Below are positions 56,134 to 60,581 of a stretch of DNA of 64,000 bases, piece by piece. The notes under the pieces were generated by a model. It did no database searches, had not been told where the DNA came from, and saw only the letters and a list, made by a program, of their open reading frames with translations. Source of the stretch: Burkholderia sp. NRF60-BP8 (GTDB taxonomy: Bacteria > Pseudomonadota > Gammaproteobacteria > Burkholderiales > Burkholderiaceae); contig NZ_CP013373.1 of NCBI RefSeq assembly GCF_001522585.2, positions 682,001-746,000 on the forward strand, given 5' to 3'. Position 1 is the first letter of the stretch, and each line of letters begins with the position of its first letter. Both the position numbers and the translations under genes were made by a program.

Positions 56134-57189
56134 ATGAATCCTCCGAAATCCGCTCCCGACGCTCAGGGTCTGTCCTACCGCGACGCAGGCGTCGACATCG
56201 ACGCAGGCGACGCGCTCATCGACAAGATCAAGCCTTTTGCGAAGAAAACCTTGCGCGACGGCGTGCTCGGCGGCATCGGCGGGTTCGGCGCGCTGTTCGA
56301 AGTGCCGAAGAAGTACAAGGAGCCCGTGCTCGTGTCGGGCACCGACGGCGTGGGCACCAAGCTCAAGTTGGCCTTTCATCTGAACAAACACGACACCGTC
56401 GGCCAGGATCTCGTCGCGATGAGCGTGAACGACATCCTCGTGCAGGGCGCCGAGCCGCTGTTCTTTCTCGACTACTTCGCGTGCGGCAAGCTCGACGTCG
56501 ACACGGCCGCGACCGTCGTCAAGGGCATCGCGCAGGGCTGCGAACTGTCGGGCTGCGCGCTGATCGGCGGCGAAACCGCCGAAATGCCGGGCATGTACCC
56601 GGACGGCGAATACGACCTGGCCGGCTTCGCGGTCGGCGCGGTCGAGAAGAGCAAGATCATCGACGGCAGCACGATCGCCGAAGGCGACGTGGTGCTCGGC
56701 CTCGCATCGAGCGGCATCCACTCGAACGGCTTCTCGCTCGTGCGCAAGATCATCGAGCGCGCGAATCCCGATCTGTCGGCGGATTTCCACGGCCGCTCGC
56801 TGGCCGACGCGCTGATGGCGCCGACGCGCATCTACGTGAAGCCGCTGCTCGCGCTGATGCAGAAGCTGACGGTGAAGGGCATGGCGCACATCACGGGCGG
56901 CGGTCTCGTCGAGAACATCCCGCGCGTGCTGCGCGAAGGCCTCACCGCCGAGCTCGACCAGCACGCATGGCCGCTGCCGCCGCTGTTCAAGTGGCTGCAG
57001 GAGCACGGCGGCGTCGCCGACGCGGAAATGCACCGCGTGTTCAACTGCGGGATCGGCATGGCCGTGATCGTCTCGGCGGCCGATGCCGACGCAGCGATCG
57101 CCGACCTGACCGCCGCCGGCGAACAGGTGTGGAAGATCGGCACCGTGCGTGCGACCCGCGAAGGCGAGGCGCAGACGGTCGTGGTCTGA
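56134..57189 (+). CDS. purM: Phosphoribosylformylglycinamidine cyclo-ligase
   Basis: PurM closes the imidazole ring in de novo purine synthesis, using ATP to make AIR. The 351-residue protein shows [14 protein letters not shown], the ATP-binding [40 protein letters not shown] and [14 protein letters not shown]. Length agrees with E. coli PurM (345). It is a single-gene unit between a divergent promoter region and a strong terminator. Confidence 0.98.
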
Positions 57190-57300: not shown

Positions 57301-57696
57301 ATGACCGAAGACGAACGCGCGATCCGCGAGCTCGTGGAAACCTGGTTCGTGTCGAGCCGGCGCGGCGATCTGGCGACCGTGCTCGACCTGATCGCCGACG
57401 ACGCGATCTTCATGGTGGCCGGCAAGCCGCCGTTCGACAAGGCGGCGTTCGCGGCCGCGTCGCGCGACGCGAACGCCGGTGCGGCCCCCCCGCCGAAGAT
57501 CGACGGCCGCTACCGGATCGACGAGCTGCGCGTGATCGGCGATTGGGCATACATGCGCAATTTCATCGAGATCGACGCGACGCCGCCAGGCGGCGAGACG
57601 ATCCGCCGGTCGGGCCACACGCTGACGATTTTCCGCAAGGCCGACGGCCGCTGGCAGCTCGTGCGCGACGCGAATCTCGTCACGCTCGCGGGCTGA
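57301..57696 (+). CDS. NTF2-like protein, SgcJ/EcaC-type family
   Basis: This is a 131-residue cytosolic protein of the cone-shaped NTF2/SnoaL-like fold (DUF4440-related). ATG 57301 follows AAGGAGG and begins MTEDERAIRELVETWFVSSR. Family features are the N-terminal helix, DLIADDAIFMVAGKPP, the central RIDELRVIGDWAYMRN and the C-terminal HTLTIFRKADGRWQLVRDAN. Members include hydrolases, isomerases and non-enzymes, so function is unassigned. It lies between purM and tetA (convergent) and has no clear partner. Confidence 0.88.
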   Translation: MTEDERAIRELVETWFVSSRRGDLATVLDLIADDAIFMVAGKPPFDKAAFAAASRDANAGAAPPPKIDGRYRIDELRVIGDWAYMRNFIEIDATPPGGETIRRSGHTLTIFRKADGRWQLVRDANLVTLAG

Positions 57697-57718: not shown

Positions 57719-58915
57719 TTACGCGGAGGCCCGCGGTGCGTTCACTGGGCGCGCGCCGGCCAGCAACGGCGGCACGAGCAGGTACAGCAGCGCGGCCGCA
57801 GCCCACACGAGCCCCGGCCAGGTCGCGCGCGTCGCCGCGTAGGTCGCGGTGACGACCAGCGGCCCCGCGACGCCGATCAGGCTCGCCACGCTCGCCAGCG
57901 TGCCCTGCAGTTCGCCCTGGCGCGCGTCGTCGACCTGCCGAGCGAGCATCGCCTGCAACGCCGGCAGCGTCATGCCGCCGGCCGCGAACAGCGGCAGCAG
58001 CGCAAACGGCACCCAGGCGGCGGTGGCGCACGCGATGACCGCCAGCCCGAGCGCGTCGCCTGCGAGGCCCAGTGCGAGCGCGCGCCGCTCGCCGAGCCGC
58101 GCGATCAACGGCCCGATCGCGAACGCCTGCGCGAGCGCGTGGCACGCGCCGTAACCGGCGAGCGACAGCCCGGCGACCGGCGTCGACCAGCCGAAATGTT
58201 CCTGGCCGTACAGAATCCACAGCGTCGCGGGCGCCTGCGACACGAGCGCCACGATCACGTAGATGCCGACCAGCGGCGCCAGCGCGGGCGCGCCGCTCAG
58301 CCGGCGCAGGCTCGCGAACGGGTTCAGCGCGCCGACCGTCCGGCCTTCCCGGGCCGGCCGCGATTCCGGCAGCACGCGCCACACGAGCACGAGGTTCAGC
58401 GCATTGAGCAACGCGGCCGCGACGAACGGCGCACGCAGGTGCAGCACGCCGAGCAGCCCGCCGATCAGCGGGCCGGCGATGAAGCCGATGCCCATCATCG
58501 CGCCGAGCTGGCCGAAGCGCCGGGCGCGATCCGGTTCGGCCGTCACGTCGGTCACGTACGCGGTCGCGACCGCGACGTTCGCGCCGGTGATGCCCGCGAG
58601 CAGCCGCCCGACGTAAAGCCACGCGAGCGTCGGCGCGAGCGCCATCAGCAGATAATCGAGCGCGGCACCCGCGAGCGACGCGAGCAGCACCGGGCGGCGG
58701 CCGAAACGGTCGCTCAGCGCGCCGAGCAGCGGCGCACACAGGAACTGCGCGAACGCGTACAGCGCGAGCAGGATTCCGTAGTGGGTGTCGGTGCTGCCCG
58801 CGCCGGCGAGCGAACGCAGCAGCCCGGGGAGGATCGGCATCACGATCCCGACGCCGATCGCGTCGAGCAGGACCGTGGCCAGGATGGCAATCAGGGACGG
58901 GTTCAAGAGAATCAC
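57719..58915 (-). CDS. tetA: Tetracycline-efflux MFS transporter, TetA class A/C-like
   Basis: This is a 12-helix proton-coupled efflux pump of 398 residues. It keeps TetA hallmarks: LLDAIGVGIVMPILPGLLR in helix 1, the loop 2-3 motif GALSDRFGRRPVLLASL, LLAGITGANVAVA in helix 5, and MLARQVDDARQGELQGTLAS in the central C-half. By memory, these are close to TetA(A)/TetA(C). The GTG at 58915 lies inside the first tet operator; TTG at 58906 is an alternative start. It is divergent from tetR. Composition is native (high GC), so it looks like a resident gene rather than a recent transposon. Confidence 0.88.
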   Translation of the reverse strand: MILLNPSLIAILATVLLDAIGVGIVMPILPGLLRSLAGAGSTDTHYGILLALYAFAQFLCAPLLGALSDRFGRRPVLLASLAGAALDYLLMALAPTLAWLYVGRLLAGITGANVAVATAYVTDVTAEPDRARRFGQLGAMMGIGFIAGPLIGGLLGVLHLRAPFVAAALLNALNLVLVWRVLPESRPAREGRTVGALNPFASLRRLSGAPALAPLVGIYVIVALVSQAPATLWILYGQEHFGWSTPVAGLSLAGYGACHALAQAFAIGPLIARLGERRALALGLAGDALGLAVIACATAAWVPFALLPLFAAGGMTLPALQAMLARQVDDARQGELQGTLASVASLIGVAGPLVVTATYAATRATWPGLVWAAAALLYLLVPPLLAGARPVNAPRASA

Positions 58916-58932
58916 TCTATCGATGATAGAGT
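58914..58932. promoter_or_regulatory. tet operator, tetO1-like
   Basis: ACTCTATCGATGATAGAGT is a 19-bp imperfect palindrome. Compared with the Tn10 tetO1 as I remember it (ACTCTATCATTGATAGAGT), only the two bases at the centre differ. It overlaps the tetA start codon. Confidence 0.9.
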
Positions 58933-58950
58933 GCGAAGTATTCCACAGTT

Positions 58951-58969
58951 TCCCTATCGGTGATAGAGA
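58951..58969. promoter_or_regulatory. tet operator, tetO2-like
   Basis: TCCCTATCGGTGATAGAGA differs by one central base from the Tn10 tetO2 as I remember it (TCCCTATCAGTGATAGAGA). Its last base is the first base of the tetR ATG. Centre-to-centre distance to the first operator is 37 bases, against about 30 in Tn10. Confidence 0.9.
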
Positions 58970-59601
58970 TGAAGGACACGGGAGCGCGGCTGACGCGCGA
59001 CACGGTATTGCGCGCGGCGCTCGAATTGCTGGACGAGGTGGGAATCGACGGACTGTCGACGCGACGGCTTGCCGAGCGGCTCGGCGTGCAATCGCCGACG
59101 CTGTACTGGCATTTCAGGAACAAGGCCGAGCTGCTCGACGCAATGGCCGAGACGATCATGCTCGAGCGTCACGGCGCGTCGCTGCCGCGGCCGGGCGACG
59201 TGTGGGATGCATGGCTCGCGGAGAATGCGCGCAGTTTTCGCCGAGCGCTGCTGGCCTATCGCGACGGCGCACGCCTGCATGCCGGCACGCGGCCGCGCGC
59301 CCTGCATTTCAGCTCGATCGAACGCAAGGTCGCGCTGCTCGGCGACGCGGGATTCACGCCGGACGAAGCGGTCGACGTGATGGTCGCGATCGGCCGCTTC
59401 GTGGTCGGATGGGTGCTGGAAGAGCAGGCGGCGCCGGACGGCGAAGCCGATGCGCCGCTGCCGGACGCGGCCGAGTACCCGCGGCTCGCAAAAGGCTGGG
59501 CTGCGCTGCGCGAGCGCAGCGGCGACGAAGCGTTCGAGCGCGGCATCGCGTGGATCGTCGACGGCGCCCGCGCGCGCCTGACGGCGCGGCGGGCGGACTG
59601 A
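58969..59601 (+). CDS. tetR: Tetracycline-responsive repressor TetR
   Basis: The protein is 210 residues. Its recognition region, TRRLAERLGVQSPTLYWHFR, is nearly that of Tn10 TetR. With a constant offset of four, the tetracycline-contacting residues H64, N82, F86, H100, T103 and E147 of TetR(B) correspond to H68, N86, F90, H104, T107 and E151 here, by my hand alignment. It should repress tetA and itself and release DNA on binding tetracycline-Mg2+. The ATG at 58969 abuts the second operator; GTG at 58960 is an alternative inside that operator. Its end converges with miaA, five bases apart. Confidence 0.92.
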   Translation: MKDTGARLTRDTVLRAALELLDEVGIDGLSTRRLAERLGVQSPTLYWHFRNKAELLDAMAETIMLERHGASLPRPGDVWDAWLAENARSFRRALLAYRDGARLHAGTRPRALHFSSIERKVALLGDAGFTPDEAVDVMVAIGRFVVGWVLEEQAAPDGEADAPLPDAAEYPRLAKGWAALRERSGDEAFERGIAWIVDGARARLTARRAD

Positions 59602-59606
59602 CCGCG

Positions 59607-60581
59607 TCAGCCCGGCGAGCGGCCGTCGAGGACGCGTTCGAGTGCGTCGAGCGCGCGGGCCGTCGAATCCGGCGCGATGCAGTCGACCACGATCCGCTCC
59701 GGCATCGCGCGCAGCCACGTGATCTGGCGCTTGCACAGCTGGCGTGTCGCGAAGATGCCCTTGTCGCGCATCGTCCGGTAGTCGGTGACGCCGTCGAGGA
59801 ATTCCCACGCCTGCCGGTAGCCGACGCAGCGCATCGACGGCAGGTCGGGATGGAGATCGTCGCGGCGCCGCAGCCGTTCGACTTCGTCGATGAAGCCCGC
59901 GTCGAGCATCGCGTCGAAGCGCTGCGCGATTCGTGCGTGCAGCACCGCGCGATCCGACGGCTCGAGCGCGACCGGCACGAAGCGGTATGCGGCGGCCGCA
60001 TCGTCCGTACGGCGCGGCGCGGCGAGCAGCACCGACATCGGCTGTCCGCTCAGCATGAAGATTTCCAGCGCGCGCTGGATCCGCTGCGAATCGTTCGGCG
60101 CGAGCCGCGCGGCCGTGTCGGGGTCGACTTGCGCGAGCCGCGCGTGCAGCGCGGGCCAGCCGTCGCGCGCGGCGTCGGCGTCGAGTGCTGCGCGGATCTC
60201 CGCGTCGGCGCCCGGCAGGTCGTTGAGCCCTTGCGTCAGCGCCTTGTAGTACAGCATCGTGCCGCCCGCGAGCAACGGCGTGCGGCCGCGCGCGACGATC
60301 TCGCCGATCAGGCGCAGCGTGTCCGCGCGGAATTCCGCGGCCGAATACGCGTCGGCCGGGTCGATGATGTCGATCAGGTGATGCGGCACGCTCGCGCGGT
60401 CGTCGCGCGACGGTTTCGCGGTGCCGATATCCATGTCGCGGTAGACGAGCGCCGAATCGACGCTGACGATCTCGATCGGGCGGCGCGCGGCGAGCGCCAG
60501 CGCCGCGGCCGTCTTGCCGGAAGCGGTGGGGCCGAGCAGGCAGGCGATCGTCGTCGGGCTGGACTGCGAAGAAGCGCTCAT
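59607..60581 (-). CDS. miaA: tRNA dimethylallyltransferase
   Basis: MiaA transfers a dimethylallyl group to A37 of tRNAs reading UNN codons. From ATG 60581 ([18 protein letters not shown]) the protein has 324 residues. It shows the P-loop [58 protein letters not shown] and RRYAKRQ-like [13 protein letters not shown]. Its start overlaps the mutL stop by four bases, so the two are translationally coupled. mutL-miaA is a conserved pair in proteobacteria. Confidence 0.97.

Follow-up and report, generated by a model that had tools for sequence, protein, structure and literature searches.

A chromosomal Tet(64)-class tetA-tetR pair with two tet operators in the Burkholderia cepacia complex

The locus lies in a 64-kb stretch of Burkholderia DNA, which as a whole is referred to here as the window. 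It consists of two divergent genes, tetA and tetR, separated by a short region with two palindromic operators and enclosed by housekeeping genes. The features are the following:

56134..57189, plus strand: purM (AIR synthase), the left neighbour, with the Pfam domains AIRS and AIRS_C; found in 36 of 37 syntenic stretches
57301..57696, plus strand: small open reading frame with a DUF4440/SnoaL-like domain (Pfam), between purM and tetA
57719..58906, minus strand: tetA, tetracycline efflux pump of the Tet(64) class and the major facilitator superfamily, assigned by NF012174 and identity to Tet(64)
58914..58932, no strand: operator O1 on the tetA side, 19-bp palindrome ACTCTATCGATGATAGAGT
58915..58921, minus strand: GATAGAG half-site of O1, candidate ribosome-binding sequence 8 nt before the tetA TTG, as read from the sequence
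58933..58950, no strand: 18-bp spacer between the operators with a conserved TATTCCA, proposed divergent promoter core
58942-58937, tetA strand: -10-like AATACT (AATAAT in the consensus of the copies)
58951..58969, no strand: operator O2 on the tetR side, 19-bp palindrome TCCCTATCGGTGATAGAGA
58969..59601, plus strand: tetR, tetracycline repressor of 210 aa, assigned by NF010319; ATG in 37/37 syntenic copies
59607..60581, minus strand: miaA (IPP transferase), the right neighbour, followed by mutL (Pfam IPPT and MutL_C); 37/37 syntenic copies

The 37th stretch, in which purM is missing (L041), ends early at the edge of its contig.

The TetA protein passes the NCBIfam equivalog NF012174, which describes the Tet(A)/Tet(B)/Tet(C) pump, with 493.3 bits against a cut-off of 475. 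Its closest named relative among the matches listed (the best 120 of 6118) comes from Burkholderia sp. MSMB2157WGS, with 98% identity. The first-pass annotation had placed the start of this gene at a GTG inside the first operator, at position 58915, which would give a protein of 398 aa instead of the 395 aa counted from the TTG at 58906. This GTG was rejected, as the codon at 58915 is GTG in 11 and ATG in one of the 37 syntenic copies, whereas the TTG, in the context TTGAA[TC]CC, is present in all 37, the window included. Two database proteins, P0003 and P0026 (Tet(64)), have MNPS as their first residues, corresponding to the TTG start; P0004 starts two residues before that. Translation of tetA most likely starts at the TTG at 58906. 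In one copy (L063, probably Burkholderia cenocepacia NCTC13227), the tetA match is split into two pieces that overlap but lie in different frames, which suggests a broken frame or a sequencing error.

The TetR protein passes the equivalog for tetracycline repressors (NF010319, NCBIfam) with 290.9 bits, the cut-off being 265, and its best solved relative is the class A TetR (5mru). When one record was taken for each plasmid-borne class, the identity reached 52% for class A, 48% for C, 46% for G, 43% for D, 41% for E, and 38% for B. Chromosomal and other relatives are closer: 64% for Mycetohabitans, 63% for Serratia nevei, and 78% for B. ubonensis LMG 20358. The contacts of TetR with tetracycline-Mg2+ are taken here to be the class positions 64, 82, 86, 100, 103, and 147. 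All six are present in the aligned window protein as H68, N86, F90, H104, T107, and E151, just as had been read at first pass. Five of these contacts never vary among the 37 syntenic TetR copies, and the equivalent of His64 is replaced by Arg in four (L058, L065, L067, and L068), which include B. stagnalis and B. ubonensis. B. ubonensis carries this Arg, though its tetA is reported as inducible in a passage of PMC10482803.

The recognition helix, described at first pass as kept, is kept only in part. It reads SPTLYWH, and its first residue is Ser in 37/37 syntenic copies and in 33 of 49 other rows, in place of the Gln38 with which the helix begins in the rows of classes A, B, C, D, E, and G (QPTLYWH in class B); the rest of the helix is maintained. 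The TetR position 44 (Thr40 in class B) was compared with operator base pair 6 at the 82 of 86 loci that had a site to score. Thr occurs with C.G and Ala with T.A: among the Thr rows, 61 are all C.G and six are mixed; among the Ala rows, nine are T.A, two mixed, and one C.G; three Ser rows are C.G. This pattern across loci agrees with what Tn10 work is said to have found for Thr40 and base pair 6. Many rows are related and therefore not independent of one another, so the pattern can serve to check consistency but not as a test.

Both operators are located within the 62 bases separating the start codons of tetA (TTG) and tetR, with a centre-to-centre distance of 37 bp. O2 overlaps the tetR ATG by one base, the A, and the same overlap is observed in 37/37 syntenic copies. 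A search of the 64-kb window for CTATCNNTGATAGAG with up to two mismatches gave four matches, which are these two sites read on both strands; shuffled windows gave a mean of 0.34 matches, and none of 100 shuffles reached four. No further tet operator with up to one mismatch was found besides O1 and O2 in the whole Burkholderia genome (7.08 Mb in three contigs). A scan for the operator pair in other Burkholderia, suggested with the first annotation, recovered two operators in all 37 syntenic copies. The O1 core CTATCG[AG]TGATAGAG is present in each of them, and the exact 19-mer of the window in 13; for O2, the exact 19-mer occurs in 33. The spacing is 37 bp in 20 copies and 38 bp in 17. In two copies (L034 and L065), O2 is damaged, which may loosen the autoregulation of tetR.

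The palindromes had been likened to the Tn10 operators tetO1 and tetO2, with two and one central bases off, and their 37-base spacing had been described as unlike Tn10. Both statements agree with an annotated class B plasmid record (L216), in which the operators, reverse-complemented, are ACTCTATCATTGATAGAGT and TCCCTATCAGTGATAGAGA and stand 30 bp apart. When O1 is read on the opposite strand, just one base differs from the class B operator. In the class B record, the ACTC...GAGT operator is next to tetR and the TCCC...GAGA operator next to tetA, and the window has the reverse. As the order is swapped, the likeness to tetO1 and tetO2 does not extend to their positions.

The 18-bp spacer is a candidate for the core of two divergent promoters. 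Six of the seven columns of its TATTCCA are invariant in the 37 copies, and the seventh is conserved in at least 90%. Such a near-invariant element probably belongs to the tetA promoter. Because a consensus scan for sigma-70-type promoters gave no site, the promoter positions are putative. The GATAGAG half-site of O1 may in addition serve in the binding of the ribosome to the tetA message.

Taken together, the locus is, with high confidence, a tetracycline efflux switch of the Tet(64) class that is resident in the Burkholderia cepacia complex and would work by standard TetR-tetracycline derepression. The following steps are modelled on the known TetR/TetA family, from which operator binding, promoter positions, export, and induction in the window strain are transferred. 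When the drug is absent, TetR dimers would occupy O1 and O2 and block the divergent promoters in the spacer, so that both tetA and tetR would be switched off. Tetracycline-Mg2+ would then enter the pocket in the TetR core formed by the six contact residues. As a result, the drug-bound repressor would leave the operators, and both genes would be freed. TetA, as a predicted inner-membrane antiporter, would export tetracycline, and the TetR produced alongside it would reset the switch.

A second arrangement of a TetR-like gene was observed in 3/65 Burkholderia genomes (L128:4378-6606, L129:785-2989, and L073:3382-5606) and in Rhizobium sp. Root1203 (L193:1456-3561). In these loci, the gene is divergent from an FAD monooxygenase and not from tetA. 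The Burkholderia copies of the repressor score 209-214 bits, below the cut-off of 265, and their pocket reads H, N, F, H, S, E in L128 and L073. The monooxygenase is polyketide-hydroxylase-like, with RdmE, GrhO5, and MbnF as relatives, and palindromes resembling tet operators are located at the boundary of the two genes. It is possible that this enzyme is controlled by TetR and acts on tetracyclines or other aromatic polyketides.

The pairing of a TetR relative with such a monooxygenase in three Burkholderia and one Rhizobium, together with the chromosomal and conserved location of the tetA-tetR locus, speaks for a different ligand. According to this alternative, the main ligands of TetR and TetA are aromatic polyketides from nature or other compounds of the soil, and tetracyclines are one ligand among several. 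This is considered unlikely, since both proteins pass tetracycline-specific curated cut-offs and the tetracycline contacts are kept.

The chromosomal place of the switch is fixed. TetR exceeds the cut-off in 39 of 65 Burkholderia genomes, in one of them only when its frame neighbours are included. In 37 of these 39, tetR and tetA are placed beside miaA and mutL, with both operators present; absence of the pair from close relatives would have counted against an old resident switch. The species with the syntenic pair include B. lata, B. seminalis, B. arboris, B. cepacia, B. anthina, B. latens, B. metallica, B. ubonensis, B. stagnalis, and B. cenocepacia. The small DUF4440/SnoaL-like reading frame comes and goes independently of tetA: it is found in 25 of 37 stretches with tetA and in 15 of 24 without it.

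The remaining 26 of the 65 genomes have no such TetR, and 24 of them were inspected beside miaA (G050, in which no miaA was found, and G057 were left out). The 6-kb stretch beside miaA contains neither tetA, tetR, nor an operator with up to two mismatches in any of the 24. In 23, purM stands beside miaA, within 0.7 kb of it in 21; two others (L111 and L112) have 2.4-2.7 kb of other sequence between the two genes. As purM adjoins miaA where the tet genes are missing, the site is empty in most TetR-lacking genomes. When mapped onto a tree of 59 purM rows (36 from genomes with and 23 from genomes without the pair), the presence of the pair requires 11 changes, compared to 18.5 for shuffled labels, and none of 500 shuffles was as low as 11; well-supported branches force only two changes. 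In our reading, the pair was inherited and repeatedly lost, and the purM tree fits gain or loss alike.

The other two of the 39 TetR-positive genomes (L071, G052:C4; L072, G025:C124) carry a different tetA-tetR pair with 49-51% identity. Its operators are of the AATTTATC type and 32 bp apart, and its TetR has Ala at the position of Thr40. In an order-wide sample, four of 300 genomes pass the TetR cut-off. Two of the four are Burkholderia, and the other two have TetR rows identical to class G and class C plasmid rows. In a genome from another family of the order (G157:C1:1943835-1945473), the match to a tetracycline-repressor TetR is divided into two parts separated by about 1 kb, which looks like an interruption of the gene.

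The composition of both genes is native. The GC content at third codon positions (GC3) is 0.93 for tetA and 0.85 for tetR, similar to the 0.90 of purM and miaA, which bears out the high native GC noted at first pass; the absence of a flanking transposon also stands, with the stretch from purM to mutL filled by named genes. In comparisons with 36 relatives, tetA has a median dN/dS of 0.10 and tetR one of 0.16, next to 0.05 for purM, 0.16 for miaA, and 0.12 for mutL, and both tet genes are under purifying selection. Their median dS (0.31 and 0.36) is higher than that of purM (0.13), miaA (0.21), and mutL (0.22), which may reflect faster change or some exchange between species.

Phylogenetic trees were built for TetR (62 rows, with 13 of the 37 Burkholderia rows kept) and TetA (56 rows). 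Both were obtained by a quick method with midpoint roots and without an outgroup, and several rows are long-branched. The Burkholderia genes form one clade with a support of 98 in the TetR tree and 99 in the TetA tree. The mobile classes A, B, C, D, E, and G are found together on one side of a branch (88 and 99, respectively), and none of the mobile classes is nested in the Burkholderia clade in either tree. Serratia, tet(39), and Mycetohabitans are nearest to Burkholderia with supports of 81-84, but the quick method and long branches leave the exact sister unsure. For the different pair of L071 and L072, TetR groups with the mobile classes and TetA with Lysobacter, on long branches. These trees place the window pair beside the mobile classes A-E and G. 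The earlier view of an old resident switch or intrinsic efflux system is supported by the common location in 37/39 genomes, the GC3, the purifying selection, and the separate clade.

The tet family is best known from transposons and plasmids, and at least 5000 plasmid records match the window TetR. It could therefore be proposed that a mobile module of class A, B, or C type was recently inserted into the chromosome. The best plasmid match is, however, a Mycetohabitans megaplasmid with 62.6% identity, and TetR(A) reaches at most 53.2%, both among the best 60 of at least 5000 records. Synteny in 37 of the 39 TetR-positive genomes, the clade of its own, the GC3 close to that of purM and miaA, and the gene-filled purM-to-mutL stretch stand against such an insertion as well. 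A recent mobile origin is rejected on the grounds of synteny, clade, and composition and is hardly credible.

The reverse relationship, in which the resident lineage gave rise to the classical mobile classes A-E and G, was raised at first pass as an ancestral form of the mobile tet modules. The resident genes are chromosomal, GC-rich, and native, and their operators and pocket are common to residents and mobile classes, which such an ancestry would explain. The mobile classes A, B, C, D, E, and G are nevertheless opposite to Burkholderia across a branch (88 for TetR, 99 for TetA) in trees with midpoint roots, and the residents stand beside them. The operator spacing also differs (37-38 bp against 28-32 bp in the mobile classes), as does the residue at position 38 (Ser against Gln). 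The ancestor proposal is not supported and is very improbable. The sole mobile class seen near the resident lineage is tet(39) of Acinetobacter, which is found with chromosomal Serratia genes at weak to moderate support.

Within the resident-switch reading, a broader proposal can be made tentatively. The Ser38-type repressors of Burkholderia, Serratia, Comamonadaceae, Sphaerotilaceae, and Stenotrophomonas might form an old chromosomal lineage with operator pairs 34-39 bp apart, which was the source of the mobile tet(39) of Acinetobacter. Since the same repressor scaffold is also paired with the polyketide-hydroxylase-like FAD monooxygenase, the switch may originally have served the defence against natural aromatic polyketides. 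As a whole, this proposal is rather doubtful.

These results show that much of the Burkholderia cepacia complex has this tetracycline switch among its inherited genes, and not as a recent acquisition. This helps to interpret resistance-gene calls in these genomes and to place the mobile tet classes.

Among known systems, the Tn10-type class B module shares the divergent genes, the two operators, and the same pocket residues. It differs in protein identity (TetA 41%, TetR 38-41%), in the 30-bp spacing, in the swapped operator order, and in Gln38. Membership in this module would imply close kinship and a mobile context; the window has 41% and 38% identity and a fixed housekeeping neighbourhood. 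The tet(39) pair of Acinetobacter falls on the same side of the trees and has Ser at position 38 and a 37-bp spacing, but it is located on plasmids, with a TetA identity of 57% and a TetR identity of 52-54%.

The operator spacing of nearer relatives is 34 bp in Rubrivivax, 35 in Pelomonas, 36 in Pandoraea and Luteibacter, 37 in Serratia, Mycetohabitans, and tet(39), 38 in Delftia, and 39 in Acidovorax, several of these pairs counting a second site with one or two mismatches. The mobile classes A, B, C, D, E, and G have a spacing of 28-32 bp; that of Lysobacter enzymogenes is 32 bp, and Nitrospirillum and Mesorhizobium both have 26 bp.

The chromosomal tetA-tetR pair of Serratia marcescens and its kin is presumably tet(41); a literature search for tet(41) with Serratia gave no match. 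This pair has 70-71% identity in TetA and 59-62% in TetR, shares the 37-bp spacing, and is near in both trees with weak support. Unlike the window pair, it belongs to another genus, and the distance between the tetR start and the nearest operator is greater; the TATC core is mismatched in one of the two operators.

The closest system is Tet(64) of B. ubonensis. By the naming rule, a TetA belongs to a named class when it is at least 80% identical to the named class protein. The window TetA shares 88% identity, over 97% of the length, with the database protein P0026, which carries the name "tetracycline efflux MFS transporter Tet(64) [Burkholderia ubonensis]", within the clade supported at 99. 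P0026 in turn groups with the syntenic TetA of B. ubonensis at 97% identity. The divergent tetR and the same site are also shared, as the locus of B. ubonensis LMG 20358 (L067) is syntenic. Tet(64) of B. ubonensis was reportedly described by Somprasong et al. in 2021. This work (doi 10.1128/AAC.01767-20) is among the references of PMC13055311, PMC9220107, PMC13391677, and PMC10482803, the last of which states, citing it, that tetA and tetR of B. ubonensis are induced 16-22-fold by tetracycline and doxycycline. An excerpt of a 2020 screen for tetracycline resistance genes (PMC7725328) gives predicted new efflux genes in Burkholderia cenocepacia and Pandoraea pulmonicola. The available passages of a 2015 review of Burkholderia efflux (PMC4396416) describe no tetA-tetR pair and name another tetracycline exporter, BcrA.

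The window and B. ubonensis pairs share, besides the TetA identity of 88%, a TetR identity of 78% (LMG 20358), the same purM/miaA/mutL place, and the same operator cores. They differ in the species, within the same complex, in one end and the centre of O1 in L067, and in the pocket, where the window TetR has the His64 equivalent and the B. ubonensis TetR has Arg. The determinant is already known, and the window holds a further species copy of the described Tet(64) class.
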